In this document: positions 6,250 through 61,112 of the stretch, in pieces
Layout of the letters: every line of letters begins with the position of its first letter
Position numbering within the stretch: the stretch's first letter is position 1
Assembly (NCBI GenBank): GCA_037893245.1
Contig: JBAIAA010000818.1
Location: 372,001 to 436,000 of the forward strand
DNA length: 64,000 bases
Direction of reading: 5' to 3'
From: Crossaster papposus
Lineage: Eukaryota > Echinodermata > Asteroidea > Velatida > Solasteridae
Notes under the pieces: generated by a model
What the model was told of the DNA's origin: nothing
Database searches by the model: none
Seen by the model: only the letters and a program-made list of their open reading frames with translations
Translations under genes and position numbers: made by a program

Positions 6250-8663
6250 TTACACAGCGTAACCATTTTCAGCAATATCAATTAGTCTTCGAAATAATTC
6301 CAGTGCAGCTTGCCAGGTGCTAGGTCTTGACACACCCAGAGCATTCCGAACATAGTCAAAGTATTCTTGGTACTCATTATTGTCTGTTACGTTAATGCAC
6401 TGCTGCGAAACATTATTCATTTCCATCTTGGATATCATTAACAGCAAATCTGGGGCACCTCCATGGTACTCTGGCATAAAAAATAACGAGTCTGGTCTTC
6501 CATGCACTGTATCATGTCTGGACTTTCTTATATAATGGGTGTTCCATTGTTCCCTCACATGATCACACTCGTCCTGCAGCAAACCAGAAAAACAGAACCA
6601 CAGGCACTCCTTGTTCGTTTCTGACGTGGTGTCGATTACACCATGGGATTCCAAGTCTTGAAAAAACGCTCTCCACCAAGATGTACGATTCTTGCAAAAG
6701 AAACTCCACCATCCTTCGATCCTCTGATTCCTTGGGGAGGGAACATACCTATGGGCATCGGCATTTTCTCGAAAATAGCTTTGCATAGAAGCAACTAAAC
6801 CATTTTCAGTTCCAAGATCTGTAACTATCTCAACTGGCACACCTTCTAATTCAGCAACAGTGTCTAGATAGTACCTGGCTGGATTCTCAGGCAAATTGTT
6901 TGAGCGTGCAACTTTAAGCCATAGTAAGCGTCTGCTGTAGCCATCAATGCAGCCATGAATTGGGAAACCCCATGGTTTTAATTTGTCATATCCATCTAGA
7001 TGCCACGAGTAATTTGGACCTGGGTTTCTATAAACTCTTCTTTTTAATCGATGTGCTTTACGTGCTGATACCCCTTCAGGATCTAATTCTTTAAGTAGTA
7101 GTTGTACAACTATTCTAGGTACTCTTAAGCCTTCTAATTCGAGTGTGTGCCAGACAGATCGATACCCTCCAGCTGATCCTGGGCCATTAATAATTTCTTC
7201 CACGCGTTTCCGTACATCATCTATTCGATGCAGTGTATCAGGGTTCCTTCTAGACAATCCATATTGATTTAGTCTTCTTAAAAGTGTGCTGTAGCTGATA
7301 CAGTGGTTATGATTCTTGTCGAGAAAGAGGAGGATTTCCTGGTATTCAAAACCTCTGTTGAAATAGTATTTAATCACAGCCTCTTCATCAAACTCAACTT
7401 CACTTTCTTCATCCGAGTCTGATGCACCCTCTTGAAGATCTGTGGAGTAAACAGTTTAAATTATGAGGCTGATCACAATTTAAAACAAGTGTCGCCTTTT
7501 CCCACAGTCGATCCCTACAACTTTAAGTTTTCTGCTCTTAAACAAAATTGAATATAGTGTGTAAGTTGTCCTCGAGAACGTACAAGACTTTACGACAAAC
7601 CAAACTTCCGGGCAACTATAATCACTAAAAATGGCTAATTACTGAAAGGTAGATAGCAACTTGATTTTTATTTTTAAACGACCTCGAATGACCCCTGGAT
7701 GACTTTAGACCTACACGTATTTCGAAAGAGGTAAGCTGAACCAAAACATCACTCAGCCTTCCAAGTAACATTCAAGTTAAAATCTAAATGCTGTATGTAC
7801 ATTAATAATAATATTAATAATAATGCTAGTTTTTATATAGCGCTTTAGACTCGCACAATGTGGGTCTCAAGGTGCTCTCACATTATTACCCCGGTCATTG
7901 GGCCCATGAAACATTCCAAATACCATCTCAGCTCCCTGGGGAGTATACAGCTCGATGCTGCCATTTCGGTGCAAAGCAGCTAAATCAACCACAATAACCA
8001 CCTCTGCCCTCACAGGTACCCATTTACTCCTGGGTACGGTGGCGAGAAGCAATGAGTGACAAAGTGCTTGCCAAGGGCACACGCACAATAGTCCCAGGCC
8101 GGACTCGAACCCAGAACCTGTAGCTTTACATACAGATTAAAAATTCAATGCTCCAGACCACGAGACCACGGCACTCCATACATTACATGTATAGCCTAGT
8201 CAAGGGCAGATTTTAAAGCATATTTGATCAATGCCCTCTAGTATAAATGACCCCTACATGACATTTGACTGCAGGTCTTCCTACCCATGGGTCACCGTAC
8301 CCAAGTTTCATTATATACGGCAGTCAGCGATTAGGTAACACAGTACCAGACCTCATATAATATTTGGATATCGCTCTCTTGGAAACAGATTGGTTGATAT
8401 TACAATATTCAGGTTCCAAGAAGAGTGAAGGTCCAGAGTATTGTCAATGTAAGGCTGGGCATAACTGCCGTAATTAACGAAAGTCATGTTATCATGTGTG
8501 TTTGTATTAATACACTAGCCTTGTTCAGTTGAAAGTTTAGGCCTACACAAAAACACAGTCACAAGTACAAAGAAAGAGAGGTATACCACATACCTTCTCC
8601 ACAGTTTGAACAAAAATTGTCGGCGTTTCTACATTCCTGACCACAGTTGCTACAAAGGGTCAT
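6250..8663 (-). CDS. Integrase-core (DDE) protein with N-terminal zinc ribbon, two exons
   Basis: Exon 1 is 8663-8594 and exon 2 is 7439-6250, joined in phase (G plus AT gives Asp), for 419 residues. Exon 1 starts at a good ATG and encodes a zinc ribbon (C4, C7, C18, C21). An acidic Asp/Glu/Ser linker follows, then a helix-turn-helix-like region and an integrase fold. Candidate catalytic acids are D172 (in WHLDGYDKL), D231 (in VTDLGTENG) and E265 (in NQRIEGWW), with 33 residues between the last two. The block NQRIEGWWSFF is typical of an integrase-core family found in many copies in fish, amphioxus and cnidarians. The frame is intact with canonical donor GTATG and acceptor CACAG, and no terminal repeats or target duplication were seen nearby. 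It is either a young transposase or a domesticated host gene. The longer open frame alone starts at GTG and misses exon 1. Confidence 0.82.
7797..8178 (-). repeat. tRNA-derived SINE, family S1 (copy in integrase gene intron)
   Basis: On the minus strand it starts with a tRNA-like head: an A-box-like GTGGTCTGGAGCATTG and a B box GGTTCGAGTCC. A body of about 250 bp follows, ending in a TATTAATAATAATATTA-type tail. A second copy lies in WDR1 intron 11 (18686-19036) in the opposite orientation, and a body fragment is at 38148-38205. Pol III boxes, shared body and simple-repeat tail together define a SINE. Confidence 0.8.
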
Positions 8664-8874: not shown

Positions 8875-9207
8875 GCCGCGGCGCTTTTGCTTTCGCCGGG
8901 GCGCTTTTGCTTTTGCCGCGGCGCTTTTGCTTTTGCCGCGGCGCTTTTGCTTTTGCCGTGACCTTTTTGCTTTTGCCGTGACCTTTTTGCTTTTGCCGCG
9001 GCGCTTTTGCTTTTGCCGCGGCGCTTTTGCTTTTGCCGCGGCGCTTTTGCTTTTGCCGCGGCGCTTTTGCTTTTGCCGCGGCGCTTTTGCTTTTGCCGCG
9101 GCGCTTTTGCTTTTGCCGTGACCTTTTTGCTTTTGCCGTGACCTTTTTGCTTTTGCCGCGGCGCTTTTGCTTTTGCCGCGGCGCTTTTGCTTTTGCCGTG
9201 ACAGTTG
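8875..9207. repeat. 20-bp minisatellite with two unit variants in blocks
   Basis: There are sixteen full 20-bp units plus a partial one. Variant A is GCCGCGGCGCTTTTGCTTTT and variant B is GCCGTGACCTTTTTGCTTTT. From 8875 the order is A4 B2 A6 B2 A2 and a partial B; the first two A units each carry a point change. Twenty is not a multiple of three and the unit has no stop codon in any frame used. Long open frames therefore appear on both strands (Lys/Ala/Arg-rich on the minus strand), as a by-product of the period. The array sits between the integrase-like gene start and the WDR1 promoter. Confidence 0.95.
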
Positions 9208-9748: not shown

Positions 9749-10960
9749 ATGCCGTTCAGTTACGAGAGAAGTGAGTATTATGAAGAATAATTAGTGTCTC
9801 TCTGATTTTGTTTTAGTTATGTGAAATTTCGGTAGTGACAAATAGATTGTTTCGGAGACAAATCCCGGAAGTACGACGAGTTGTGACATTGTACATTGAC
9901 CTATAGTATAGCCTATAGTATAGCTATAGTACGTGCGTACATGTACATAAATGTACATAGTGTATGTGTACTTGTCGATGTACTGTTTTTAATACTACAT
10001 GTACATCATATTACTAAGACTAAGTACTACATGTAGTACACTGAACTAGTAAAATTACCAACAGATACCGGTAAACCAACTGAGAAACAAGTAGGATCGA
10101 AGATTAAGATGGAGGTACTCTATGTTTTCTTATGATTTGGAGGAGAGAGCTTTTAACGCAGTTCTGGCGGGCAGATGTTCAAATGACAATTTTTTTGAAT
10201 GACTTCAATTTTCATGATCTCTTTCCCAGATCAGAGTGAACGACAACATGAACATTGATATGAATAAGATTAAAACTGCTGCAAACTGCTTACTAGCTGG
10301 AATGACCTGAAATATACAAATCAAAAGATATTTTTTTGAGCGAAATATTTAGGCAGTCTTAACTTTATGCCAACACTGGTATAAATTGGTATATGAGGTT
10401 TAAGAAATGGACAATTACCTTCTGCAAGTGCAAGAACAGTTTCGCTTTGAAACAGTGTCACCTTCTGTTAATACAATTGTGTTTGTTTTTCAGAGAGTAT
10501 TTTTGCTGCTCTACCTAGGACAGAGCGAGCCCGTGCATTCAACCTTGGCGGAGATCCAAAAGGCAAAAATTTTCTGTATACAAATGACACCAATGTCTTC
10601 ATTAGAGATATTGAGGTGAGCAAATTTCCAAAATTGATGGCCCTGTTAAATGTCAACCAATTATTCCACACCTCTCCTTCCCTTATCCCCACCCCATCCC
10701 CCTTATCCCCACCCCATCCCCCTTATCCCCACTCCCATCACCCTAATCCCCACCCCATCCACACCCATCCCCTATCCACCCCCATCCCCTATCCACCCCC
10801 ATCCCCTATCCACCCCCTAGCCGCTTCCCGGTGTCAAGAGGAAAGATGACAGACAGTGTAAAGAACCTTTTAATATTCCATCTGAACGGATTATTTTCTT
10901 ATGTGCGACCATTCGTTCTCATTCCAGCTTGTGACACTTATTCTGGAGTTTTGGTCGTGT

Positions 10961-11010
<50 letters not shown>

Positions 11011-14000
11011 TATAATTTGTTGCAGAATCCTTCAATATGTGACGTTTATGCCGAGCACGGTTATCAGACGTCTGTAGCTAAGTACTCCCCCAGTGGTTTC
11101 TACATAGCGTCTGGAGGTACGTTGTGTTGACAAGCCTTTTTGGTTTGTTTTAATGCAAGAGTTGCTGTACAGAAAATATTGATCAGCATTACGCCCAAAA
11201 AAATTAAGAAACAAACATTTAAAGATTTAGGACTGTGTTAAGAAGACATTTATAACCAACTGCAGTGTCATGGATAGAGGGCAGAGTTTGAATTGTAGTG
11301 AGGGATGTTTTGGGGTAAAAACTATGGGCCTTTTCGAATCGCTGGCTTTGTCTTCGTCTTCGCCTTCTGGTGTCTGTTTGTGCTCCAGAAACATTCAATC
11401 CGTCGGTATGAACCTAACAGTTGTCCGTTTGCTTCCATTTCGATTTGTTTCTCAGTGATTTGGAATTTGGAGCTGAAGCCAAAGCCAAAGTTTTAAAAAG
11501 GCCCTTGGAAGACAGCGAAATGAAACAGCGACAAGTCTGAATAAATCCTCGCCATCTGATTGGTCGGAGCAGGAGCGTGCAATGGAAGTTCTATTCACCG
11601 TTAAATGGAACCATTGAATAGAACTTTGTATTGCGGTGCGGCGGTGCCGTGCGATAGAATGAATAATGTATTCAGGTGTTGTATAACATCGACATTTCTG
11701 TTGTTCCCCTCTGTGGCAGATGTCACTGGTAAGCTGCGTATCTGGGACACCACCCAGAAGGAGCATATTCTGAAGTACGAGTACCAGCCAATCTCTGGCA
11801 AGATCAACGACATTGCTTGGGACTCAGAAAGCAAAAGAATCGCCGTGTGTGGACAGGGTCGGGAAAGGTGAGTGACAATCTACAAGCGAACTTGAATCCT
11901 CGATCCTGATTGGTCGATCCATGGCAACAAACACTGTATTGCATGACCTATATCAAACTCTGCGTGTGGCGCTGTTCTAACTCCGCGTATTGCGCAAAAT
12001 GGGAAACGCAGTGCAGCACAATCCATTGGACATTCAAAAGCTGCGCGTGAGAATCGACTGTTCAGTCGCCGCGAGAACGAGGATGATCCTAAAAAAGGAC
12101 TTTTCGAGCCGTGGCGTGAATGGTAGTAATAATAATGATGTGACTTCCACCAATCAAATGACAAGGATTTGTATGTGAGTTATATAATACTACCTTTAAT
12201 GATCAAGTATTTGAATATTCGATGTATTCGAAACAGCCCTAATGACCGCTATATCCAATAAGTATTATGAGTCGGTTTTTTTTTTAAATTCATAGGTTCG
12301 CTGCAGTCATCTTGTGGGATTCTGGCAGTAGCGTCGGCATTCTGAACGGGAATACTAAAAACTGCAATGCTATCGACATGAAGCCGACCCGCCCCTTCCG
12401 CCTTGTGACTGCCTCAGAAGATATGGCGGTAGCGTTCTACGAAGGGGTGCCCTACAAACTGAAGACAAGCCTCAGGGTAAGTGTAAAACTGTGTTCCCAT
12501 TTGACTGTGTACCACAACTTTTCTGTAGATTAAATTTGAAGAGAACGCGTGTTAGACTAACGAATCTCTGTCAACGTACTGCCACTGAAACTACCGGCTG
12601 AAAGTAGTCGCGAAGAGTTTCTGCTCAGCATCGGTTATTCTTTGACTAAAGACGAATGCGTTTGATTGATCGTGTACGTCGCGCATTCTTTTCACGCAGT
12701 CTTTGCAAATCTTTGCAAACGTCTTGGCGAAGTTGCTTTTCAGCGGTTTAACTTTTTTCTTATTTGGTATTGGTATTGTTTTATTTTTCCGCAGCCACTT
12801 GGGGAGCCAATCAGCGATCGCAGAACTGCGATTATCAACACGTACTACGCGCACGCAAAAATGTTCTTTGTGAAGCAGCGCTAATTAGATACGCAACACA
12901 GGCCAGCGCGACCGCTGAATGGTAGTTGACTGCGTGAAGATGCTATGCCTATATTCGAATGGTCGAATTAGCATGAAAAGGTCACGCCCATTTAAGTAGT
13001 TTGCAAAGACCATTGCGTGATTGAGGGAACTGATGGAAAACATGGGAGTCCAATGAAAACAGCTTCACCCAATAGAAGTACAGCGACTACGCGTAAACTG
13101 ATTTGCAGCTGTATTTTTCTGACCACCCAGCTCGGAGGCCACATGTTAACGCTGTTTATCAGTTTGCGCCGGAATTATTTTAACATCACTGAGCCAAGGC
13201 GCGGGATCATTTTTAACGAAACTCGATCCGAGGCAGGTTCAGGCCGATGGTCCAGGGAAGCACACACAGTCGTGAACCACAGGATCGACCAAGGATCGAT
13301 ATTGTGTTTTCCTTTATTCCTTTACTATACCCTAACCCCATTACTTAGCGCTTGCCCCAACGATCGAGGACTGAATTCGGACAAGCAAACCGTCCTTCGA
13401 GGATCCTTTGTTCCCTTTGTTCTCTTTTGTGTTTCGATCCTCGATCGTAATACGATACAAGAACACCCACGCATTTTCAGCCTTGCTCGCTGCTGACAGA
13501 CATTTCTGGCCTTGCTCGTGACGTGTTTCTGCGTCATCCGTTTTGAATTTGGGGAAAACTTTGCGTTTATATACGTCATCCGGCACCAACTGGTTAACCC
13601 TGATCTGCAAGTCCTCTATTACCTTTTTGCAATTTTTGTTCTACCGAATCCATGTATCACTAAAACCAGAGTTTTATCCTGTTTAAGTGGTTGACTATTC
13701 ACTGTAACACAACAGCAGGATTTTTCAAATGCCATTTTCCCCAAAATCAGTTTTACAACTTCAACTAAATTGGTCGTCTATATTTCCGTTACTGAACTAA
13801 ATAAATACCCCTTAATAATGTTATATACGTCCTCCAGCGCGAACTGGTTTAAAATGAACCGAGCCGACGTAACTCGTACTATATTCCCTAAATAGGTTCA
13901 CTCATACATACCCTTAACCCTTTTTCCTCACTCCAGGAGCACTCCAATTTCGTGAACACAACAAAATATTCCCCAGACGGTAATTTTTTTGTTTCCGGTG

Positions 14001-17000
14001 GCTCTGACCGAAAGGTAGGTCTGGATTTGATCCTTGCATCTCCGGCCAAGTTTGCATTGTGTGTGCGCTTGTGTTTAAAAGCTCTAGTATATTTTTTAAA
14101 AGCTGTAGTTCACCAACCAACATACTGTTGAAACGCTGGACTCTAAACTCCGTAAAATTACTCCTTCTGTGAAAAATTATTCATTCTGAAGAAAAAAATA
14201 AAAGAAGTTCATCTTCCAAAGATGCGTCTCAGAGACACATTTTTGGAGATTTCCCTCAGAAGTTGATTTGTGATCCACAAATGGTGCGCACACGCACAGA
14301 TACGCACACACGCATTAGTCAGTCAGTTCAATTTGCTCGTACATGTAGCAGTTTAAAAAAAAAATGCACCCCAAATGCCGATTGTGGTCGCAATTTAAAT
14401 TGTGACTCGGCAAATTTTGAATTAAAATTGAAATCTTTGAATAGTTTTATCTATAGTATATACCATTCACAAAGCTAAAAAAAAAATAAAAAAAAAAAAT
14501 CATCAGGTTGGATTTTGTTGGTTTTCTTTAGGTTTTCTTGTACTCGGGAAAAGAAGGTGAATTGGTAGCTGATTTTAAAGACGGGCAGAAGGACGAAGAC
14601 AACGCCCACAAAGGGGGTGTGTATTCGGTGAGTGTATTCATAAATACCAATATTGTCGTGGGTTCTTCTCTTTGAGAGTCGTGGGATACAGTGTTATTAA
14701 CCCTAACGTCCTAGGCATTAACTTTGGGCTAAAGAATACTACCGTACTACAGAATACTACCGTACTACAGAATACTACCGTACTACAGAATACTACCGTA
14801 CTACAGAATACTACCGTACTACAGAATTTAACTTTTGATTTTATCTGTAGCAATCAGACATGGGTCGGACTTCTCCGAAATCAGAACAACTGACACACCA
14901 AGTCTTACTTTTTCAGCTCGGGCAGTAACGCCAGTGAGCCGGTTGTAAATTTAGCCTCTCAGGTTGTATCATAAAATTGGGCCTGATCCCTGGTCACACG
15001 CATTCTGCTGTTTATGACTTCTGACTAGCGCCCTCGAACAAATATACTGACAATTTGGGAGACTGCCAACATAGGGCAAGATGGCTCAGTTGGTGGAGCG
15101 CCGGTCCGGAGGTCGCAGGTTCGAGTTCCGCCTTGCAAATTTCTTTGTTCTCTTTGAAACTGTTTGCTAAACTGTTGGTTTTTTGTTGTTTTGTTTTTAA
15201 GGTGTTTTTTAGTGCTGACAGTAAACAGCTCATTACTGCATCTGCCGATAAAACTGTCAAATTGTGGGATGTCGAATCACAGCAGCTCATCACGTAAGCG
15301 AAGAGATTTAAAATGCAGTTGTATACTGGTGTCCTTTGATGGCAAAACAGTCCAAAACAATTCTTGTAAGAAAACAAATCTATGAAAGTTGTTTATTGCA
15401 TGGCAGTGGTACATGCCAATGCACTCCAGCTGTGTGCATTGGAGGATTATTGTGCATTGTGCATTTGAGTATAAACGAGAGCAAGGGTTAAAGGTAGGAT
15501 ACACCATTGGTAATTGCTTGAATTATCATGAATGGGTAGATTTGGAGGGTTGTATTGTATAGTAAATATCGTTTAACTGACCTGTCCGAAGTTTTACAAT
15601 CATGGATGCCGAGGAAAGCACGAAAAACAGCGTTTTCACCGGCGTCGACCGTTTATTCTTATGTTATCTTTCTTTTTCGCGCTCGCCGTCCGACGATCGC
15701 GAATTTTTCTTTATAAATTTATATTTTTCGGAATAATTACAGGATATCTAGCGCAATCATTTTGCTGGGTGCCTGCAATCATTATTTACTTTCAAATGAG
15801 TATGATATTTCTTAATAATTCGGTAGTAAATATTTTCGATATTTGCAAATGGTGTATACTACCTTTAAAATAGAGACTTTGTGTAATGTGCCTTCACCGA
15901 GTGCAGTCTTAAATTGAGTGACGATAAATGACTAACTCACTCACAGACCGTTTGGGTACCGGGCCTGGTAAGCCAATTCCTTTCACTCTACTCGGTGTTC
16001 AGCCAGCAGTCACCTGGTTACTGATGAGGAAGTCACTATGAACTACCTTGTGTAGCGGTTCTTGTTGTAATTATCAAGGCACTCAAGGTAATCTAACCTG
16101 GTGTTCCCTTCGCCTTGCTCTATTGTTACAATAATCCACGAGAAAATTTGGCGAAGAAAAAGACAAACATTTATGATAGCCAGACCTTTCCATTCATAGC
16201 TCGCCTCTCTACCAGCTAGGCTAATTGGCGAGTTGGTTGAGGACAGCCGTTCTTTGCAGTTTTTTAATGTAGCCGATTTGCCATTGTTCTTTCTCATGAT
16301 TATACATTCACGCACAACCCAGCTGCTGAAAAAAAATATATCGCGAACCGCTACGCGGGTTAGTATCAAGTGTCTTCCGGTTATTGAATCATGACACCCG
16401 ATCAGTCCCATATACGTATCTCACAACTCGAACCAAAGGCATCTTATTGTTTATTATCGGGCCAGGTTGCTGAGATGAACTGTGAAGAGGGAGAGGAATG
16501 TTTACTTCTTTGCGTTCCAATGTTCACCTACTATAATGATTAGTACCTTACAGATTGGTTCCTTTGTGGTGAGTCAGAGTGTGAGGCGTGAGTCTGGTTG
16601 AGTTAATCCTGCCCGATTGGGTTAGTCCAAAGTCCCAATCCCTTTGACTTACCAGGCGGGCTAGACCCTGAACGGTCGATCTCGGAAGGTATTGTTATTT
16701 GATTGTCTGCATTACGGTGGAAGCATACAAAAGTATTGAAAAGGCCTCACCAGAACCCTCCCTCTAACTTCTCATTTTTGGGTGGTTTTTACTATACCTC
16801 AGGACCTTTACGTTGGGCCAGGCAACTGAGGATCAACAGCTTTCTCTGCTGTGGCAAGGAGATTACATCCTGTCCACTTCCCTCTCGGGTTACATCAACT
16901 ACCTGGACAAGAACAACCCCGACACCCCGCTGCGCATTCTCAGGGTGAATGGAATCAAGATTATATTATCATTGTTATTATTTATTCTTTCTGGTAATGA

Positions 17001-20000
17001 AACCAAGGATCCATCAAAAGTGATGCTCAGGCATTGTAGCTCGTAAGCCTGAAAAAAACCTGTAGAGAAAAGACAGTGAGAAGAAGGTACAGTTTTAGAG
17101 TAGCAGTCTTGATCGTAGCACCACCTTAAACAAAAAATGTAGTAGCTTGTGTTTTAAAATTTCTTAGAATTAAACAATACCTTTGAAATCGGCATCTAAA
17201 AACCTTGCATTACAATGATTAGTATTTTCTCTATGTAGGGTCACAACAAGAATATCTCAACGATGACCCTGTCTAGCGACACCCAGTCCATTTATGCAGC
17301 AAGCCTGGACAACAAACTTCATATCCTCTTTAAAAATTAAAACCATTAGAATCTGTTCTATATTGTTTTTCATGGCAGTACAGGGATAAACGGGCAGGGT
17401 GCAATTTGGGCAGTACAGGGCGCATCTTGGGCGGTACAGGGGCATAATGCAGTCAGCTAGCTATTTCAGCTTCCACAGACCTACAGTCAGATTCACTGCG
17501 CATCTTGGTACACACGTCACAAATTGTATGGCTCTGCTAACCACAAAAGACTAAGTGCATTCCTTGCTTACAGTTGCCATTTTGGGCCAAATTTCATGGC
17601 CCTCTTACTGTAGCAGAAAATTATGTGCTTACGGTAAGCGTTTATCACGGGCTAGCAGGGATTTTTGCGCATGTGTACATCCCGTAACTAAGGATTCTGT
17701 GCTTGCAGGGTTAGCACAGATTTTTTTTACTGCCAGTGCAGTTAGCGCAAAATGTCGTTAAGCAGAGCCATGAAATTTGGTCCAGTTAAAAAAAAAGTGA
17801 ATCCAGTAAGCACAGAATCGTATCAGTTGCGAGAAGCATGCATAGGCATCAATCAAAAATTGCTTACTAAACCCTGCAATACGCTTTATCATAAGCAAGG
17901 ATTTTTCTGCAATAAAAAAACAAATGCTACAGAAACACAAAGTGTGAGTCTACGTCTTGGTGAAGGGAAAACAACAAATGGCCGCTGTATTATATATTAA
18001 ATATTAAATATTTTTCGCTAAGCTCTCATTTTTTCAAGTCTTCTGATGAGAGACTTGAGTTAAGTCATATGTCTGCAGTGACCCAACAATTGTGACTCGA
18101 GTCGGACTCGAGTCGAGTCATTGACTCGAGTCATTAAAACTCTGGATTGTGCCTTGACTGTAACACTGTGCTGGGATGCCGACACCAGTGAGTGTGACAT
18201 TGTCAAGGGTAACGCCCACACCTCCATGGTGACGGCCATGAGTACCGATGGAAACACAGTGGCTTCCATCGGCATGGACGACAAGATCCGGTTTGTTGAC
18301 ACGGAAGCGAAGGCGTTCACGTGAGTAAAAAACAATCTATTGAAAGGTCCACCGTTTGCTCAAAACCTCAAAAGTCAGACTTTTGAAGAATTTAGAAATT
18401 ACATGCTTGGATTCTGCAGATAAAGAGCTTTCCAATGGTATACATTATTAAGGGGTACTTATTTAGTTCAGTAACGGAAATATAGATGACCAATTTAGTT
18501 GAAGTTGTGAAACTGATTCTTGGGAAAATGACATTTGAAAAATCTGTGCTTCCCTGCACTATCGGCCTGAACCCGCTTCGGATCGAGTTTCGTTAAAATT
18601 AATCCCAACCCTCGGCTCGGTGATGTTAAAATAATCCTGGCGCGAACTACTTGAAAACAAAAATGTGAACAAATTTGTACTTTGTCCCACTGTGGAGTCT
18701 CATGATCTGGAGCATTGAATTTGTAATCTTAAAGCTGCAGGTTGTGGGTTCGAGTCCGGCCTTGGACTATGGTGCGTGTGCCCTTTGGCAAGGCACTTTG
18801 TCAATCATTGCTTCTCTGCACCCAGGAGTAAATGGGTACCTGTAAGGGCAGAAATGGTTATTGTGGTTAATTTAGCTGCTTTGGGCCAAAATGGCAGCAT
18901 CGCGCTGTATACTCCCCAGGGAGCTGAGATGGTATTTGGAATGTTTCATGTGCCCAATGACCGGGGTTATAATGTAAAGCTCATTGATACCGTTGGTGAT
19001 AAAGCGCACTATAAGCACAGCACATTATTATTAATATTACTGCAAAAATGACAATTTCCAACAATAGGTTTATTTTGTGGTGCCTATTTGAATATTTATT
19101 CCTGATATTTGTCTTGGATGCTAAACAGAATTGGACAAGTTTTGCACCGTTCAAACATTAGTTTTTCCTTAGAAAATTTGCATTTCATTGGCAAATTTAG
19201 GACTCCGATGTAACACAGTGTCTTGTTTACTTGTTGTTGTCGTGTTGCCAGTTTGACTGTACAAACCTCTGCGTACTACTAACTGACCGCAAAATGGAAC
19301 CGTACATATTTTTTATATGTTTTTTTTTATAAGGTTATTGTAGATGAATTACAAGAGATAGGTTACAAAATATGGTGAAATGACCCCAAAGTAGAAATGT
19401 TTGTTTTGTATCTACTGCAGTGACGAGGTGATTGGACTGGACAAACAGCCGCTGAGTATAAGCACCAAGGGAGATCTGATGGCGGTTGGCACAGTCGGAG
19501 ATGTAAGTCTAAATTCTTAACAACCTAGGGAGCCTCGTGCAGCCATCTCCAATTGTCAAATAATGGCTTGACTGTCTCTTGTACTTCCCAACCCGCCACA
19601 GATTTGCCTGTTCAAGAATAAGGCTCAAGTTTGCACGGAGACGATCGGCTACGAAGCCAAGGCGGTCCACTTGAGTTCCACGGGGAACTTCTTAGCTGTT
19701 GGCGGAAGCGTAAGTGTTCCCTGTAAATAGTTTCTGTGATTCCCTAATAATTACACCGAGATCCTTCAAAATCTAAATTTTTTGGTGGATGGAACGCTTG
19801 GAATTTTATTTGTACAAAGTTAGAACTTTATTTTTTTAATTTGTAGCAAATTTTATTTTTTCTAATTTGTAGCAAATTTTAAGGGCAGAATGTAAAATTT
19901 GATGAGTTTTCCTGAGGTACCCCCTAAAACCCTATTTCAGCCAGTTTTAATTTTGCATTCTCACGTAACATACCTGGCTTAGCCAATAAGTGTGGCTTTG

Positions 20001-21505
20001 CCGAATTTACATGTATTAATTCTTCTGGTAATGAAACCAAGGATCCCTCAAAAGCACCCAAGGCACTGTAGCTAGTAAGCCAGGAGAAACCTGTAGAGAG
20101 AAGACAGTGAGAAGAAGGTACAGTTTTAGAGGTGGAAGGGAAACCCCAGACGAATATCCTGGGGGACACCCACGGAATCAGGCAGGAACTGAAAACCCAA
20201 TTCACATATTGGCCCAGGCCGGATTCGAACCCGGGTCACAGTGGTGGAAGGCGAGGAAAGAACTGCCACGCCAACCTGACTCCCCCCAATCATCAACAAT
20301 CAGCGGTCTCGAGGAGGCGGTGAATAAAGTAATGAAAAGCAAGGTGGACATTGTTCCCCTCAACTTTTTCTCACTTAGATTCGCTCCTTTTTTCTTTTCT
20401 TTTTTCACTGGCAGGACAGCAAATTGCACATTTTTGACGTTTCCGATGACAAACTCAAGGAGATAGATCAGCTGACTACGAGACACCCCATCTCCACTGT
20501 GCAGTTTTCCAGCGACGCGGAGTACCTGGCCTGCACAGCCGAGAAGGCCATCCTGTTGTGGAAAGTCGAGGGCTTTCAGGTGAGCTGATCGACCTGTTTC
20601 ACATCAAAATTACAAAATATTACTAGTAGTAAAAATATAGTTTGCAGTACTCTCACCTACTTGTGTGCAATAACTGTAGTAATTTGTAGCATTTAGTACT
20701 TCCCCCTAAATATTGTAAGTAGTAATATGCAATACTAAAAGTTGCTTGGTGCAGATAGGTACATCTGAACCAATTGTACTCGGCAAGCAGAAAGACCAAT
20801 GCTAAATATTCATGTGCATTCATCGTACACTCTCTTGGCCTTTGTCTTTGTAGCCAATGAAAAACTCTTGGGGTTCCCATGGTGCCCGTATCACATCGCT
20901 CCAATGGAATCCTGAGAATAAACGCTTGGCCACAAGCGGGATTGACAGCGCCATCGGGGTGTGGGATGTCGACAACCTAAACGCCGGCAACATGATCAGG
21001 CGTAATTACTTTCCATTTTTTCTTCCTGGAAGAATTTGTTTTCGTCAAATTTATTGTCTTGCATTTACTATTTGTCTGTCTGAAAACTTGATAATTTCCG
21101 GACGTCTGTACATTGCTCTGTTTCTTCAAAATAGCGGCGGGGCCCAGGCCCTTAAACTGCAAGGGAAACGGCCGGCCTTGCGGGACCCATTTAGACAGGG
21201 TGCCGTGTGTCTAGGGGATCCTTCGTGGCCCGCCTTCCACAGAGTGATTGAGGCATCATTCACTTTGTAGATCGAGCCAGCGCTCTAGTAATTTAATATA
21301 GCTCTATGCATTTAACTGAAATATCAAAACTGTTTATTGCGTGTGGCATATTTGACTGAAATTTGTCCCTATTTTGTCCCTTTTTTGTGTGTGTGGCATG
21401 CCAGATGCCCATCAAAAATCGGTCATCACCGCCCTCGCATGGCGAGACAACACCACCATCGTGTCAGCGGCGCAAGACAAGTGCATCATGCAGTGGACGG
21501 TCTAG
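9749..21505 (+). CDS. WDR1: WD repeat-containing protein 1 / actin-interacting protein 1
   Basis: WDR1 (AIP1) binds cofilin-decorated actin filaments and promotes their severing and disassembly in the cytoplasm. I rebuilt sixteen coding exons: 9749-9770, 10494-10615, 11026-11116, 11720-11867, 12296-12476, 13937-14014, 14532-14627, 15202-15293, 16803-16944, 17239-17320, 18167-18320, 19421-19502, 19602-19709, 20415-20579, 20854-21001, 21405-21505. All phases agree and the sum is 604 codons with stop, giving 603 residues; the vertebrate protein has 606. The product follows the family end to end, for example [50 protein letters not shown] and a final MQWTV. Fourteen introns are GT-AG (the exon 15 donor GTAATT is weak). 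Intron 10 is AT-AC (see separate entry). Introns carry SINEs, TTAA elements and tandem repeats. The ATG context AAAGATGCC and the short first exon fit the start. Confidence 0.96.
10680..10822. repeat. C-rich minisatellite in WDR1 intron 2
   Basis: About 140 bp of imperfect tandem units such as CCTTATCCCCACCCCATCCC and CTATCCACCCCCATCC. The minus strand carries many G-runs of three to five separated by short loops, which suits G-quadruplex formation; the plus strand suits an i-motif. It starts 65 bp past the exon 2 donor. Confidence 0.85.
10964..11004. repeat. (ATTG)n microsatellite before WDR1 exon 3
   Basis: About ten copies of ATTG end roughly 20 bp upstream of the exon 3 acceptor at 11025. 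The tract lies where the branch point and pyrimidine tract would normally be. Length variation could therefore affect splicing of exon 3. Confidence 0.85.
13155..13597. repeat. TTAA-type inverted-repeat element, family B, interrupted copy
   Basis: It lies in WDR1 intron 5. The ends are degraded versions of CCAGTTCGCGCCGG and its inverse, followed by GGTTAA. Left and right parts match the 234-bp copy at 41991-42224. Relative to that copy, about 200 bp (roughly 13265-13462) is extra, and it begins and ends near AACACACAG/GAACACCCACG, as expected for a nested insertion. The insert ends in inverted GATCG-rich sequence. Confidence 0.7.
13717..13853. repeat. Dispersed repeat related to family B (WDR1 intron 5)
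   Basis: This segment, with the blocks TTTTTCAAATGCCATTTTCCC and GTCTATATTTCCGTTACTGAAC, is found inverted at 18449-18655 in intron 11. Both copies lie beside GCGCGAACT ends of family B. It looks like a longer or chimeric member of the TTAA family. Confidence 0.6.
14732..14827. repeat. 18-bp tandem repeat, about five copies (WDR1 intron 7)
   Basis: The unit AGAATACTACCGTACTAC is repeated about five times with almost no divergence. Its period of 18 keeps one frame open on each strand and creates short spurious open frames. The near identity points to recent expansion. Confidence 0.95.
14947..15139 (+). repeat. tRNA-derived SINE, family S3 (WDR1 intron 7)
   Basis: The right part reads as a tRNA-like unit: AGATGGCTCAGTTGGTGGAGC (A-box region) and GGTTCGAGTTCC (B box). 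The segment before it (CCTGGTCACACG, TTTATGACTTCTGACTAGCGC, GGAGACTGCCAACATAGGGC) is matched in inverse orientation at 39160-39305. The element ends about 60 bp before the exon 8 acceptor. Confidence 0.75.
15488..15868. repeat. Short inverted-repeat element, family A (copy 3, WDR1 intron 8)
   Basis: It begins TTAAAGGTAGGATACACCA and ends GGTGTATACTACCTTTAA, giving near-perfect terminal inverted repeats. It has the full set of family blocks (GACCTGTCCGAAGTTTTAC, ATCATGGATGCCGAGG, GGATATCTAGCGCAATC, TTCTTAATAATTCGGTAG) and can serve as a reference copy of about 380 bp. Confidence 0.85.
16989..17100 (-). repeat. tRNA-derived SINE, family S2, truncated (WDR1 intron 9)
   Basis: About 110 bp matching the body of the longer copy at 20024-20290, sharing GGTAATGAAACCAAGGATCC, AAACCTGTAGAGA and AAGACAGTGAGAAGAAGG. 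The tRNA-like head is missing. Orientation is taken from the B box in the longer copy. Confidence 0.75.
17521..17783. repeat. Inverted-repeat element, family C-like (WDR1 intron 10)
   Basis: The left end ATGGCTCTGCTAACCACAAAA and the right end, inverted (CCAAATTTCATGGCTCTGCT), form imperfect terminal repeats. A second CCAAATTTCATGG block occurs inside at 17585. The ends resemble the family at 21977-22215. The element lies in the U12-type intron. Confidence 0.55.
18090..18140. repeat. Palindromic ACTCGAGT cluster near the U12 intron 3' end
   Basis: The self-complementary core ACTCGAGT is reiterated about four times within 50 bp (GACTCGAGTCGGACTCGAGT and so on). It ends some 25 bp before the U12 branch site, and the transcript could form compact hairpins there. 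Confidence 0.7.
18686..19036 (+). repeat. tRNA-derived SINE, family S1 (WDR1 intron 11)
   Basis: A tRNA-like head has GATCTGGAGCATTG and the B box GGTTCGAGTCCGG. The body matches 7797-8178 in inverse orientation (for example AATGGGTACCTGTAAGGGCA and ACTCCCCAGGGAGCTGAG). The tail is ATTATTATTAATATTA. It lies directly beyond the family B fragment that ends near 18655. Confidence 0.82.
20024..20290 (-). repeat. tRNA-derived SINE, family S2 (WDR1 intron 13)
   Basis: On the minus strand the head begins near 20290 with TCAGGTTGGCGTGGCAGTTC (A-box region) and CGGGTTCGAATCCGGCC (B box). The body continues to about 20024 and ends TTTCATTACCAG. The body is shared with the headless copy at 16989-17100. 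Confidence 0.75.
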
Positions 21506-26868: not shown

Positions 26869-29800
26869 TTAATACTGAGGCCACTCCGTCATGTGTCTGA
26901 GTTCATGCCGCTGCCACGCCTCGGCAACATCAAAGAACCTCTGACAATAACGACACTCGTAAAGCTTCTTTCCCTTGTTGCTTATAAAGACGTGCTTGGG
27001 GCGCGGCCTTTCTGGGGTAGTGCTTCCAACCTGTCTGTTCTGATTGTCTGCCGATTTCATCGAGGTGCTGGATGTAATTGTCTGGCGTTGTTGTGTGGAG
27101 GCCTTCTTGGACACCAAGGATGTGGAGAGGTTGCGACGAGGAAACCGGTGGATCTTCTGGTGGGTGGCGATGGCAGAGGCAGTGGAGGAGGAGAAGACAC
27201 AGTACTCGCACTTGAAGGCAAGGTTGTAGTTGTGCAGCTTGAAGTGGCGGTTGGCATCTTTTTCATTAGTGCTGGTGAAGGGGCAGAGGGAGCACAGGAA
27301 TGGGGTCCGGGTGCTTATGGTGTGGGTCTGTTCACTGTGGACCTGAGTTTTGTGAATCTGGAGACTGCTAGCATTAGGGAAATTGACTTGACAGTATAGG
27401 CAGGTGACTGGAACGTCGCGCTCAGCAGGAGCGGGATGCTTGTTCTGGTGACGCTGCAGGTGAACCGCTTGGGCCGTCGAGAAGTTGCAGCCTTCCTCCT
27501 GGCACTGGAGAAGGTTTTCCTCCTGATGTATCTGCATGTGGTGCTGCAACTGACCACTGCCTGTCACCAAGCCACACTGGGGACACTGGCATGGAAGACT
27601 AGCCTGTGCTTCCACATGACCCCGTGCCTTGTGCTGGTTCAGATCGCTGCGACGCTTGAATATAAATGAGCAAACCGAGCATTCATATGTCTTCTCAATC
27701 TGTGCTGGTGTAACATTCTCAATAATGACAGAGTAGGATGGCAGATTTCTCATCTCGGGGTTGATCTCGCCGCTGCTGGAATCCTGGACCCGGTTTAGAT
27801 TTTTACCACTTGGGATTCTGCCATGAACCTTGATGTAGTGGTTGCGAAGGGTCTTCTTGTTTTGCAACTCCCTCCCGCAGTCCTTGCAGACGACACGGTT
27901 ACTGGATTCTGCTGTTTGCCAGTCTCCCTTCTTCATCAGCTTGCGGTATCGGCATCTGAAGTTGGGGTTCTTGTGCTTCTCTGCGTGCCGCCGGAGGTGA
28001 TGTCGGTAGGCTGTGGCATAGGTACACAGCTTGCATTGGAAGGGCTTGTGCTGCCTGTGCACTGTCTGTACATGTCGGATCATAAGATGCCTCATCGGAG
28101 TGCGGTACATGCAGGTATTGCACTGCAGGGTCTGGTGCCGATGCAGCTTCATGTGTTGCTCCAAGCGCTCTTGGCTAATGGTGGTGTACTGACACATTGA
28201 GCACTTGAGCTTTTTCGGTCCCAAGTTGCCTTTGTGAACAATGTTAATGTGCCTGTCCCACTCCTCTTTAGTAGAGGCCCGGAAGTCTTTACAATGCGAA
28301 CATGCAAAGTACTCATCAGGAGAATCTGACAATTGGTGAGGATTGTCTTCTGTTTGCTTATCCACTGACCGAGTCGCAGTATCCATGACAGATTTAGATG
28401 CAACTTCCCTCAAAGTGGGATCTTCATGTCCTGAATTTGTCGTACTCTGGTTTCCAACCTGCTCTAGGTGCAGGTTTGATACAATACAAGATTTCTCTGA
28501 CTGGTCCAAGGCCTGTGCTTTTGATTCATAATTGAAACCACTTGAAGGTCGAGTTTCAGGTATTGCTACCCTTTCATTAGGAGAGACAGATGTAGCCTGA
28601 GCTTCAGGTCCCTTTCTCTGCAAAACTGCCTTCAAGTACGCCGACCAATATGCCTGCCGTTCCTTCTTCTCTTTAGCCTCAGAATGCGCTTGAATATGGC
28701 TCTGTACAGACTCAAATGAATGCGAAGAAAACATGCACTCATTGCAGGTGTAAGGCAGCATGAGAGAGTGGGACGATCTGATGTGGTCATCTAACATTGT
28801 GGCAGATAGGAAGGAAAAGGAACACACAGAGCACTTAAACTGGAATAACTGTTCATGGGTTTTCATGTGCTTCTGGTACGTCTTTACAGTGTAGAAGTAC
28901 CTTGAGCAGACAAAACAGTTATAGGCATTCTTTCTGTGTTTTGTACCATCAGATGAAGTCTGGGTGCTTTTAGGAGCGCCTTCAAGACTCAGTGGTGGAC
29001 AGGATGATGAGCTTGGTTCAGGACTCTGTTTTATACCTTCAAGTGGTCTCTTTTTCCCTTTACCCTTGTGAACCCTTGAATGAGCAGCAAGACCATACAC
29101 GTTCTTTGTTTTGAATGAGCAAAGTGGGCAGCTCATCAACTTCTCGCCATCTGCTGCTCCTTTGGTAGGTTCCGCCTCCCTCTTCTCCGAGTGAAATCGC
29201 TGATGGGCCCTGAGGCTCTGGATACATTTGGCCTGAAACGGACATTGTGAGCAGCAGAATCGCATGGCTGGTTGCTTCTTGACATGGCACTTACGGTGCT
29301 GAACTAGCTTACTGTAGCTGGAGAAGCTTCGATCACAACTGTCGCATTCGAATACCTCATGGTAATCATCATGTTTCAGCAACGTATCGATGGCAATTTG
29401 TTCATCTTCATTGTGGAGATGACACTGAAAGCCTGAGGAACCTTTACAAATTGGGCACCCTATTTTGGACTTGTTCCGAAAACGTGGGTTGGGAGCAGGC
29501 ATAGTATCTGCCCTCCTAGTGCTGGCTGCTTGCAGCACATCCTCGGTCCCTTCAGTAGACTGCAAATGCTTTTCTAGGTAATGACGAAGAATGTTTTTGT
29601 GGCAGTAGGCAATCTTTCGACATCCCTTACACTCATAGACCAGTCTGTGTGAATCAGCATCAATTTCCAAGATAATTGACTTCCGTAAAATCCCAATTAT
29701 GTTCTGCATTTGAACTTGTTGGTTTTTCATTAGAGCACGCTTGAGGCTGCCTTTTGGTTGCAACCATTTACCAGCTATCCTCTTTTTATGTCTCTTTTTC

Positions 29801-32800
29801 AACTTAGGTCCGGATAGGAATACCTTGATAACTCTTTTAAGAAGTGCATTGTTTTGACTGCCAGCTGTGAATCGAGGCACCCGTTGGGATGCTATGTACG
29901 CAGGAGAACTTTGGGAAACACTACTCTGATTTCCGTTAACCAAGGACGGACTTTCTTCTACAACTTTCTTTTGCAAACCTCCGTGGACCTTGAGATGACC
30001 ACACAGCTGTCTAGCGAGAGTGAAAGATGCTGGACACAACTGGCACGGAAACCTTTTGTGAACACTCATGTGTCCAGCCACTTGATACTGATTTTTAAAG
30101 GGTTTATCACACACCCGACACTTGAAGGTTTTCTTTTGGGGAGCTTCAACATTTGGGATTTTTATTTCTTCTTTGCTGATTTTTCCCTCTTCTCTGCTTA
30201 TTTTTTCCTCTTTTCTGTCCAACTTGTGTTTCTGAGTTTCTATACTCTCAGCAGGAGTGCCACCATTTTGTGCAGGGAGCTTTTTGTAGTAGGAATGATC
30301 AGTATCTTGCAGTGACATGGTCCTCTTAAACCGCCGGCGACGGCGCTTTTTCCCGTGAAGTCTCATGTGGAGCTGTCGCTGTTTGGACTTAGTGAAGGAC
30401 TTGCCACACAGCTCGCACGTGAATGGTTTCAGCAGGAAAGGCTTACCCTGGGTCATCGGATGGGTAACCAAGATGTGGTTTCTAAACTGAGCAACATTCT
30501 GTAATGTTTCGGGGCAGAATTTGCATGTGAACTTTCCAGCATGTTTTTTGGAGCCTTCTGCAGAGGTAGAATCTTTTCCTTTTGGTTTAATTCCCCTCGG
30601 TTTACTTTCTGACGTGTCCTTGCAGTTCCTCTCTGGTGATCCACTGTTGTATTTCCTGAACTTTGTCAACTTGTGTGAAATGTGCGCACCTCTGTGGCCA
30701 CAAAACTTCTTGTAATTGTAAAATGATGCATGACAGATGGGGCACTTATGAATTTTTCGTCCTTTGCCTTTTGAACCATCTGTACTGCCTTTGTTGTACT
30801 GGCACAACTTACTTGTTTTCATGTGGACTCTTTTGTGGGCATTGAGCTGGTTAATGCGAGTGTAGCTTTTCTCACAATGGGGACAACTGAAGGGCTGCTT
30901 TCCCCCAAAATTAACTTCGGAATTTGATATGGTCTGATGGATTTTACTTTTATCAGTTGGAGGAGCTTTTGAACTTGCATCTACTTCACTATTGCGATTT
31001 GTAGAGCGCAAAGTGAATGCCTTGTTCGGTGATTTTCTTTCAATATCTGCATAGGATGCTGCTTTTCTCACCTTTTCACAAACACTCCCAGATAATGCTT
31101 TTGATTGATCACCAGCTTCCGGGTCTGGACAAAGTTGCTGTAAAGGCTTCACACCGACTTGTGCAAGACAGGCACCACTTAGAAGATTTGGTGCAGTTTG
31201 GGCAGTGCATGTGCTCTGTCCCATTTGCTGATTCACACTGATAACTTTTGCTACTGGACCAACACTATCTGTGGAGTTTGCTGGGAGACCGTTGGCACTC
31301 TTTACTTGTACCCCATCTTCCTCCATCAGCAAGCTGTTGGATGAGTTACCCTTGTCAGTGTTGCAGTCCTTCAGCATTGCAAAGTCTAGCGATTCTTCAC
31401 AAGCCTTGGCAGTGTTGCCTGAGTTTTCCCGACTGCTGTAAGGCCCTACCCTACATATGGCGTGGATCACCTTGTGACCACGGAGTTGGGCTTTCTTAGA
31501 AAATGACTTGTTGCATATGTCACAGATGTATCGTTGGAGATTTGTTAATCTAGTACCAGGACCCTTCAACTTAGAGCCTACTTGGGGAGGGGTGGAGATC
31601 CCACCATCTGACCCCTGTCTAGTTACTTTACTTGGTTTGGTAATTTTCTGCTTCAATGCTTCATAGATACTTGGTCTTGTTGCCCGACCTGCTCTGCTCA
31701 CCACTACAGAATCATCACAATTTGCAGGGGCTTCTGTCAGCTCAGAATCTTGTTGTTTGTCTGCAAATGCACCGCTCGTTTGTGTCAAGGTTTCAGGAGC
31801 CTTCTGCGGTGATACCTTTTCCTGATTTACCTGCAGGTCAGCATCTAAATTAATGATACCTGTGATATCCCTGGTAAGCTTATCAGACTCCTGTGCTTGG
31901 GGCTCACTGGTGTGTGATTGCCCAGACTTCTCTGCAAAGAGTGCATCGGATGAACTTGATTTTGCTTCCGGACATGCATTCATCTTAACTCCAACTGAAG
32001 CATCAAAAGCTGTAGAATGATCAGTAGAGTTGTCTTCTTTTGCTAAGGGTGCCTCAGAACTCTGTAAGAGTTTTGTTTCATGACTTTTGGCGACTGCATT
32101 TGAATCATTAAAAACCACAAGTTCAGCCACTGGATTTAAAGCTGGGGCTTGGTTTGTTGGATCGTCGTCTTCACTGGCCACCTGCAGTTTTACTTGTACT
32201 GCATCATCCTGCCACTGTGTCTCAAATACACATGCTTTCGTGCCTTGAATGCTGTTCTCTTGAACTGCATGCAAGCCATCAATTACTGAAGAGTGTGGCT
32301 CAGAAAAGTCACCATCTGGCACTTTTAAGTTCTGCACACTGTCACTGTTTGTGGAGGCCATTAGTAGTTCACCATCCTGTTTCTGCGAGTGTCCAGAGGA
32401 AGTTTCTAGATTGTTTGTCTCAACCTCCGAGTACTGAAGCTCAAGTGTATTGAGTGTTTTGGGTAAACGTCTATCCTCCAGCAATGGACTGGAACTGCTA
32501 CCATGTGTAGTAATTGCACTTGGTTTATTACTCTCTTTGAGGGTGGAATCAATGCTGTTCTGTGGATGCACCTCACTTCTCAATACGGGAGGCCCATCAG
32601 GTATACCCGCTCTAGGTTTCCAACTTTCAGAAACCATAACAGTAACAGAATCTGCAAGCACATTACCGTTCAATGACATTGATGCTTCTTGACTTTCGGC
32701 AACAACCATGGGGCAGGAATCTTCCTTCGGGAGTTTGACCCAGCTCAATAACGATGGTGGACCATGTACACTTGGCCTCGCTTCTGGACTTCCAGTATTC

Positions 32801-35800
32801 ATTACAATGCTAGACTTCTCACCCTGACCATCAAAGCTCACCAAGGCTGATGCAAGAGGTGTGTTTTTTTGACCGTCAATAACCATTAAAGAGAGTGGTT
32901 CATCATCTACAGATGGTTTAGTTTTCCGACTACTGGTTGCCATTTTAGAACAAGACTCTTGAACATGCTTCAAATCATCAGATAGTTGATCATCTTCTTG
33001 TTTCTTTGTCAGACCTTGATTTTCTTGTAGATTTTTGATATCGCTTGATTGGCTTTTGCAGGAGTAAGCATCTATTAGACAGGACTCGACTTCAGGCTTG
33101 GTCTCTTCCACCTCGGTACTAAAATTATCAGCAATAGTTGTGTTCTCTTTCTGCACTGGTTTATCAGTGGATTGAACATGCTCTTCATTTACTACAGAAT
33201 TTGCTTCACTTTCTTTAATTGAAATTGGCGTAGAATTTTGGTCTTTATTCTCAGTCACAACAGTAGGCTGGGTAGGGGTATCAGCCATGTGCTCCTGTAG
33301 GGATTGATCATCAACCGGAGAGTGTCCTTCACAGTTTTCTAATTGCTGTTTGTTGGGTGTGTTTGGTTTTGCTTCCTGCATAACTGCATTTGTACCATCA
33401 CAAACCATGGCTTGAGTTGTTAGATTTCTGCTTTGCGCAATTTTGCTTTCATCTTTCAAGACATTTGCTGGTGAATTTAGTTTGGCTGAGCAGCCAAGGT
33501 TTTCCACTGTAGAAACTACATCTTGGTGATTCGAAGAGTATTTAGCCAGTTTGCCCTTTCCAGTTCTTGCCATGGTCTCATTTAAACTAGCATCCTTTGT
33601 GTCAACCAGCATTGGGCTCGTCTCTTTACCAACATTTGGGCATGCCGATTCATTGGATGAATTTTGTTTCCTTGCATTCTCCATCTCAGCACTTGCATCT
33701 CCAGAAACTGTGGAGCTAATGACGGGATCTGTATACTTTTGTTCAGTTGATTTATTACTGGCTTGTGGGGATAGTTCATCAGTTACACTTTTCTTCAAAT
33801 TACAACTTGAATCTTCATGAACCGCAGAGTTCATATTTGTTTCACCAACCTTTTCTTCTCGATCCTTTGAACTGGTGCAATTAATCGCTTGTGTTTGGTC
33901 ATCAGTCGCACTTGTTGGCATTGGCCGACTCATGTCTATCCCATCACTTGAATTATCACCACTCACTTTAGTTTCCTTCCATTTCTGCATTGGTTCTTTT
34001 CTGAATCTTGAATATCTGGCTCTGCTTGAAGGGCTGTCTGGGGATAACCTGGAGCCCACCATGTTTGAATGCACAGCCATGTGCCTTGCAAAATGCTGGC
34101 TTGATTTGAAGTAAGAGCGACAGTTTCTGCAGAAATACTTAAACAAGCCCTCTTTCTTGTGTCTGGTCGACCGTCTCTTCTTATTGTTGCTAGAGGCATC
34201 TACCTCAGAAGCTTCCTTGTTTTTCTTCTCGTTGCAAGCTCTCTGTGCAATGGTTCTTTTCTTGACCACACCTGACTTTTCATCGTCCAAAGTCGGTCTG
34301 ATCAGTAACTTCCATGGCGTAGCATGCTGCTTTTTGTGATCATGCAGTTCCCCAGAAGAGCTGCACATCTTGTTGCAGGTGTTGCAAGTGTATGGAATTT
34401 TTGATACCGTGCTGTTTTCTATAGAGAAAATTTGGGGTTCATCTGATCCTCGTTTGACTCTAGCATGCCAAGCTTTGTGACTTTTAAGCTGCCTCTGAGA
34501 GCGAAATGCTTTGCCGCATTGAGAACAAACATACTGAAGCTCCATGTCTGGGTTATCAGTAGCAACCACCTTGATGCGATTTGAGCCCTGCAGAGGCTTT
34601 TCTAAACCATGTTTCTTCAAATGGAACTTTAAATTCACTTGTCTGGCAAATGACTTTTTACAGTAGACACAAACAAACAAAGTCTTTCTCTGTATGCCCC
34701 ATGAAGCCTCGGATGACAGTTTGGTTCCTGTGTCAGCATTTCTCTTCTGGCCGTGAGTCATTCTGTGGTCCCAAAGCTTGTGCTCTGTTGGAAAGCTCCA
34801 CTGGCAGATGTCACAGGTGAATGACATAAGCTTCACGGTTTCAAGAAAGGGAGTGTCAAGTGATTTCATCGGCTTTTTGGTTGCTGGATGGAGCCTGTTG
34901 TTGTGGCATTCACTGTGGAGCTGCATTTGGTCCAGCTTGGGGAAGATTTTATGACAGACACCACACTTGTACTCAACATCTGCAGGCTCCACTACTGGTG
35001 GTCGCTCAATGCACGGTGGGTCAGCTGGGGGAGTGGCTATTGTTGCCGGGGCAGGTGGTGCACTCTTAATGGACCGATGCCTCCTTACATGGCTGCCCAT
35101 GTGACCTTGCATTTGAGGCAATCTTGGAAAGGTCTTGTGGCATATACCACACATGTATTCATAGTCATCATCCACTTGCTTGTCCCCTACTGAGATCAGT
35201 TTGTCTAGGCCTGTTGAGGAGCTGTCCACTCGCTGGGCGAGCCTCCGACACAGACTATCTAGTGTCTGAAAAAGTGGGGGTGCTGTCTTCCTTTCTTTAT
35301 CTCCTTCAGTTTGTTGCTTGTAGCGCATCCCCTCTGGTGTTGACAATGGGATTGCTGTGCTAAATACTGGAATCTGACCATCAATATCATGTTCATTCAA
35401 TTCAGGAATACATGTAAGTTGATCCAATCTACCCAGAGGAGATCCGTCATCGAGAAGGTTTGGCTTGCGTCCCCAGCCAATATTTTCCAGGGAGTCGGAA
35501 TTTGCTGCTGGCCAAGTCTTGATAGCCAAGCTGTGACTCTTGGGAACTTCCATGCTAGCAACTACCTTTCCAGACTCATCCATAACTTGAAACCTCTTCT
35601 TCTTGCTTACTTGGTCTGTGTTCAGAAACAAGTCTTTGGATACACGCATCCACTTATGGTGAGCGTAATAGTCCAGAAAGTTACGAAATTGCCGTGGACA
35701 CAACCTGCAGAACCACATAGAGTTGTTAACAGAGTGCTGGCTTTTGTTGTACATAGACCTCATGAAGTACTGATGGTGGGAACTAAGGCCTCTTGCAGTG

Positions 35801-55822: not shown

Positions 55823-57173
55823 TTACATAAATAGTTCGTTAATAGTCGTTTGGCACGACTGGGTTTGTGTGCGCTTTCTGCCTGTGGATGTGCGCGCTGT
55901 CTTCAGTGGTGCAGGGGGCACTTCCCCTTTGGTCGTCGGACAGTACTTGATGGTGTGGGCGTAATCCCCACTGGCCCCGCAGAGGGGGCAAGTGTAAGCC
56001 CGCAGAATCGGACAAGTGATCTTGCTGTCGTCGTCCTTCAGGACGTGGGATGCATAAACCATCTCGCTTTCGCCATTGTTCTTGCAGAACACGCACCATG
56101 TTGGGGTGCTGCGGGGCTTGCCTGCTGACAGGAGCCGACTGGTGGAGCGCAGTCCCCTCTGTCTGTCCTCCAGCATGGCTGCCTCCATGCCAAAGGGCGC
56201 ATAGGGCGAGAGGTCGTCCCGGCCATTCTTGCGGAAATCGGTGAAGACGTCTTCAACCATAGCAGCCCGCATCTGGGTGGTGTCGCAGCACTCTGGCTCA
56301 GATTTCCCGCAAAACCTGCTGACTAGCTGGGACAGTCCTAGGTAGTCGTGGTAGGGTTTGAATGTTCTGATGCTGGATGGGCCGTTTGTGGGTGGCCACA
56401 TACTGCTGCTGCTACCATTCACCTTTAAAACAAAATATATATATATAAATGGAGCCAGGATAATTGTTGGGGTAACCAGGTTCTCAAGTAAAATCCTGGG
56501 GACATTTTAGACAAATTGACAAATTTCCTCAGAAAATTACAAGGTAGCTAGAACTTAAGAAACCGAAGAAACATAGATATGTGCATTTCATTTGTTTCGT
56601 TTTTTTTAAGAAGGCAAGCACCTTTTATTAAAGAAAAATGTAGAACAATGTCTGGTTTTAAAATTTAAATTTAAAGTTTGCATTCACTTTGTGTGGCTCA
56701 CAAAAAGTCCAGTAATTTCACACGTTTATGGGGGCTATACAAACATTTTTGTTATTAAAGAATATTGCAAACTTTCACCTGACCTGGCTGGGTTGCCAAG
56801 AATAGATCATGTATAGTATAGAATTAGAAACAGTCCCAACTGAATTAAATTTTGTTAAAACCTGTAGTATCACTCTTTTACTAGTTTTAGTAAACTTCCA
56901 ACTACAATCTTTTCAAACACTATTTCTATAGTTTAGAAAAAAATACGTCAAAACTAAATATCTAAATATCTAAATTTTAAAATAGGCTATTCGGTTGACC
57001 GCGTCCGAGTATTGCGTTAGGCCGACCATGGCCGACTGCATTCTTCAAAATCTTTCAGAATCCAATTTCGAAGGACAACAATTGTTTCAAAATATGGAAT
57101 TAATACTTACATCCCATTGACCAGGGCCTGGCGTGCGACCAAAGTCAGTGCTGAAGTCAAATTTGCTTGCCAT
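55823..57173 (-). CDS. nanos: Nanos-family RNA-binding translational repressor (two exons)
   Basis: Nanos proteins repress mRNAs in germline precursors with Pumilio and the CCR4-NOT deadenylase. Exon 1 is 57173-57111 (21 codons from ATG) and exon 2 is 56422-55823, joined in phase 0 through GTAAGT and TTTTAAAG, for 220 residues. Two CCHC knuckles fit the family exactly: C131, C134, H147, C158 and C166, C169, H177, C182 (C-x2-C-x12-H-x10-C, then C-x2-C-x7-H-x4-C). FKPYHDYLGLSQLV at 42-55 matches the CNOT1-interacting motif of vertebrate Nanos, with Tyr in place of the usual Trp. After the fingers comes [14 protein letters not shown], shared with the paralogue at 60468. The large exon alone starts at GTG and is not a complete frame. 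Confidence 0.93.
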
Positions 57174-61028: not shown

Positions 61029-61112
61029 GGTGAGGGTGAGATTTGATCAGAACTCAGATGTTCGGAAAGCGCACGTCAAGGTGAAAACTAAACTTTTAAT
61101 CAAAGCATCTTA

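Follow-up and report, generated by a model that had tools for sequence, protein, structure and literature searches.

The WDR1 (AIP1) gene of Crossaster papposus lies within the 64 kb stretch of DNA analysed here (the window), and its tenth intron raises the question of which spliceosome removes it. GT-AG termini are found in 14 of the 15 introns of our gene model, the exception being intron 10, which begins with AT and ends with AC. A preliminary description had read it as an AT-AC intron of the minor, U12-dependent class, and we examined this reading through the gene model, the splice signals, the competing splice pairs and the snRNA genes of the same genome.

Identity and structure of the WDR1 gene

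The gene occupies 9749-21505 (+) and encodes 603 amino acids in 16 exons (Table 1). We set the exon boundaries by hand, guided by homology and by the sequence at the splice sites, which makes the structure a model rather than a transcript, the donor of intron 15 (GTAATT) being its least certain boundary. The reading frame ends with TAG, its single stop. In phmmer searches of PDB sequences the model gave full-length matches to human WDR1 (9qfq_P; residues 4-603 of 603, E 5.8e-171), C. elegans AIP1 (1nr0; residues 5-603, E 1.4e-129) and yeast AIP1 (1pgu; residues 7-603, E 6.1e-66), which places it in the WDR1/AIP1 family. Searched by itself against the same PDB sequences, exon 10 matched WD40 proteins generally, C. 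elegans AIP1 reaching no better than E 1.4, and it is therefore insufficient to name the gene.

A WDR1 retrocopy was sought as a natural cDNA, and the 15 exon-level matches listed for the animal's own genome were all on the WDR1 contig. Six peptide patterns gave no match to WDR1 relatives in viral contigs; in prokaryote genome contigs there were 12 pattern matches, none of which was confirmed.

Table 1. Exons, introns and intron 10 splice signals of the WDR1 model (window coordinates)
Feature	Position	Strand	Basis or remark
Exon 1	9749-9770	+	homology, splice sites
Exon 2	10494-10615	+	homology, splice sites
Exon 3	11026-11116	+	homology, splice sites
Exon 4	11720-11867	+	homology, splice sites
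Exon 5	12296-12476	+	homology, splice sites
Exon 6	13937-14014	+	homology, splice sites
Exon 7	14532-14627	+	homology, splice sites
Exon 8	15202-15293	+	homology, splice sites
Exon 9	16803-16944	+	homology, splice sites
Introns 1-9	within 9749-17238	+	all GT-AG in model
Exon 10	17239-17320	+	ends in phase 1 (C of split CTG codon)
Intron 10, AT-AC, putatively U12-type	17321-18166	+	846 bp, phase 1
Putative U12-type 5' splice site ATATCCTCTT	17321-17330	+	+8 departs from consensus ATATCCTTT
Putative U12-type branch site TGCCTTGAC	18150-18158	+	CCTTGAC at 18152-18158
AC 3' terminus of intron 10	18165-18166	+	intron tail ...GTAACAC
Exon 11	18167-18320	+	model
Exon 12	19421-19502	+	model, human WDR1 match
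Exon 13	19602-19709	+	model, human WDR1 match
Exon 14	20415-20579	+	model, human WDR1 match
Exon 15	20854-21001	+	model, human WDR1 match
Exon 16	21405-21505	+	model, human WDR1 match; includes stop TAG
Introns 11-15	within 18321-21505	+	all GT-AG in model

Splice signals and reading frame of intron 10

The termini that the preliminary description had proposed are present, ATATCCTCTT starting at 17321 and ...GTAACAC ending at 18166, and the CCTTGAC that it had placed ten bases before the exon is found at that distance, with the presumed branch-point A at 18157 and exon 11 opening at 18167. U12-type introns have AT-AC or GT-AG termini, a donor of the form [AG]TATCCT and a branch site close to CCTTRAC, whose A lies some 8-15 bases short of the exon; ATATCCT at 17321 and TGCCTTGAC agree with these patterns. 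Two bases depart from the wider consensus: the donor consensus ATATCCTTT has T at +8, where intron 10 has C, and the branch-site consensus has T at the second base, where TGCCTTGAC has G.

Read without splicing, exon 10 runs into an in-frame TAA at 17338. Joining the C at 17320 to the TG at 18167 restores the frame across AT-AC termini and yields SLDNKLLCWD, which aligns with SHDGHINYWD of human WDR1 with no gap at the junction, as had been claimed. The accompanying statement that no GT donor precedes the in-frame TAA holds for the sequence after 17286 only, since exon 10 has GT dinucleotides at 17240, 17271 and 17286.

A polypyrimidine tract is not needed by U12 introns, and the pyrimidine fraction before the acceptor is lowest in intron 10 (0.55, against 0.59-0.86 in the other 14 WDR1 introns); this is the direction expected of a U12 intron, by a small gap to the next value. 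The intron contains inverted repeats, and a blastn comparison (dust filter) with the rest of the window returned nothing at E 1e-3. An additional exon inside 17321-18166 was sought by tblastn of the WDR1 model and three homologue stretches, and the two matches listed, one of 8 residues (E 8.5) and one of 10 (E 5.1), are at chance level.

How often such signals arise by chance was estimated with Markov models. Under an order-2 model of the window, the donor [AG]TATCC[TC] is expected at 1.9e-4 per site and the branch motif [CT]CTT[AG]AC in an 8-position slot at 2.0e-3, the product at fixed boundaries being 3.9e-7. With looser placement, under a model of positions 17001-18500, the rates rise to 0.0049 for a donor within 44 nt and 0.0084 for a branch motif followed by AC or AG within 60 nt, with a product of 4e-5 and no joint occurrence in 20,000 draws. 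Within the 64 kb window ATATCCT occurs four times on the plus and six times on the minus strand, CCTT[AG]AC five and eight times, and the loose donor-branch-A[CG] pattern with a span of up to 5 kb at 10 and 19 places, respectively; intron 5, whose donor is GTAAGT, likewise contains a branch-like motif within its final 45 bases. The motifs alone are thus not enough, as they are not rare when the coding frame is disregarded, and the case rests on motifs, frame and homology together.

Competing splice pairs and other explanations

With the start of exon 10 and the end of exon 11 fixed, we enumerated the splice pairs that keep the frame free of stops and scored them against a profile built from the stretches of human WDR1 and of worm and yeast AIP1. 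There are 130 such pairs (48 AT-AC, 36 AT-AG, 22 GT-AC, 18 GC-AG and 6 GT-AG), and the AT-AC pair 17321/18166 ranks first with 90.8 bits, ahead of the runner-up (84.0 bits), which shares its AC acceptor but starts from a different AT. These scores bear directly on the possibility that the major spliceosome removes a GT-AG or GC-AG intron with other boundaries, leaving a shortened or altered blade. Exon 10 does contain GT and GC dinucleotides, and the 18 GC-AG and 6 GT-AG pairs would preserve the frame, but the best of them reach only 74.1 bits (GC-AG) and 68.3 bits (GT-AG, rank 27 of 130), and splicing from the GT at 17271 or 17286 would lose the last part of exon 10, a part that aligns with human WDR1. 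Removal by way of such boundaries is accordingly very unlikely.

Still less probable are two readings that accept 17321-18166 as the interrupting segment. AT-AC introns removed by the major spliceosome are known, and intron 10 might be one of them; these U2-type introns have an ATAAGT-like donor, whereas intron 10 has ATATCC together with a U12 branch motif at the U12 distance and, by a small margin, the lowest pre-acceptor pyrimidine content of the 15 introns, so that we give this reading hardly any weight. The inverted repeats could also suggest that the segment is an insertion that has broken a pseudogene. The reading frame of the 16-exon gene is intact, the 15 genome matches listed all lie on one contig and reveal no further WDR1 copy, and the boundaries of the segment bear U12 signals, all of which makes a disrupted pseudogene extremely improbable.

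Minor-spliceosome snRNA genes

The animal's own genome assembly (1.02 Gb in 1841 contigs) was searched for the snRNAs of the minor spliceosome, and all four, U11, U12, U4atac and U6atac, were found with matches above the respective Rfam cut-offs: U12 at 137.4 bits, U11 in at least two matches at 105.5 and 95.1 bits, U6atac at 138.1 bits and U4atac at 83.7 bits, copy numbers being lower bounds because only the best candidates were scored. A full Rfam scan repeated the matches for U12, the two U11 and U6atac. One of the U11 matches and the U6atac match share a contig (C499; L004 and L005), about 0.7 Mb apart. The window itself, scanned with Rfam at gathering thresholds, had no matches.

Duplex calculations, made on snRNA segments of our own choosing and without a random control, gave -6.0 kcal/mol for the branch site with U12 (-8.3 for the consensus), -4.4 kcal/mol for the donor with U11 (-6.5) and -6.0 kcal/mol for the donor with U6atac (-6.4). 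The weaker pairing relative to the consensus is due to the C for T at donor position +8 and the G for T at branch-site position 2.

The U12-type reading of intron 10 in this echinoderm WDR1 is strongly supported at the sequence level, because donor, branch site, acceptor, phase, restored frame, the lack of a good GT-AG alternative and the four snRNA genes agree, as do the homology across the junction and the splice-pair ranking; the assignment made by the preliminary description is thus upheld, and the intron is almost certainly a substrate of the minor spliceosome. Splicing would then proceed as follows: the donor ATATCCTC would be recognised by U11 and subsequently by U6atac, U12 would pair with the branch site TGCCTTGAC, and A18157 would attack the donor. 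With the 3' cut made behind the AC at 18166, C would be ligated to TG, and the WD blade containing SLDNKLLCWD would again be read in frame.

Other features of the window and the genome

Several further open frames were observed in the window. A Nanos RNA-binding domain (PF05741) is encoded by each of two minus-strand frames about 4 kb apart (55826-56506 and 60471-61046), which are apparently tandem paralogues. Also on the minus strand are an uninterrupted stop-to-stop frame of 3444 residues (26869-37203), whose part at 27000-37203 matches C2H2 zinc-finger families, and an open frame at 6253-7455 that encodes an integrase core domain (PF24764) and probably derives from a mobile element. A plus-strand open frame of 628 residues (1646-3529) matches no Pfam family at E 0.001, and a tandem array of 20-base units at about 8900-9200 leaves several frames open.

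COX1 was found on contig C1841 (L015), and for its translation we used table 9, the mitochondrial code of echinoderms and flatworms. In an alignment with PDB chain 8ugh_4A, read by eye, six of the seven AAA codons face Asn; of the seven AGA codons, four are opposite Ser and three opposite Ala or another residue. The codons fit the echinoderm mitochondrial code, table 9 being the one applied, and so support the assignment of the animal to the echinoderms. Stop-free COX1-family frames (L014, L016 and L017) are also present on contig C8, which exceeds 5 Mb and is perhaps the genome of a bacterium, either symbiont or contaminant, included in the assembly.

Comparison with known minor introns

Intron 10 shares with the U12-type AT-AC introns of animals the AT-AC termini, the ATATCCT donor, the CCTTRAC branch site and a distance of some ten bases between the branch-site A and the exon, and its host genome shares with theirs the minor snRNA genes; it differs from their consensus in the two bases described above.

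The preliminary description knew of no report of such an intron in WDR1, a statement now overtaken by a 2025 preprint whose table of 'U12 intron containing genes' has an entry for human WDR1 (Table 2 of PMC12637451). The orthologous human gene is thus listed with a minor intron as here, in an entry that gives neither the position nor the terminal bases of the intron, nor the origin of the gene list. In the literature searched for WDR1 together with minor introns, U12-type or AT-AC, this preprint was the only source that made the link; two further candidates deal with other genes, WDR11 (PMC11039992) and WDR19 (PMC8531310). The density of minor introns in starfish has been reported to be comparable to that in vertebrates (PMC10639083).

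An AT-AC minor intron in an echinoderm WDR1 is therefore unsurprising. It is unlikely, though less so than any of the explanations set aside above, that vertebrate WDR1 has no minor intron at this place, the echinoderm and vertebrate genes having acquired or retained different ones. Intron 10 adds a clean case to a known class and is probably inherited rather than new, in which case it would go back to an ancestor common to echinoderms and vertebrates. Knowledge of minor introns as such is unchanged by it. Gene predictors that have been trained on GT-AG introns may break genes at introns of this kind, and intron 10 could serve to date a minor intron in a gene of the cytoskeleton.
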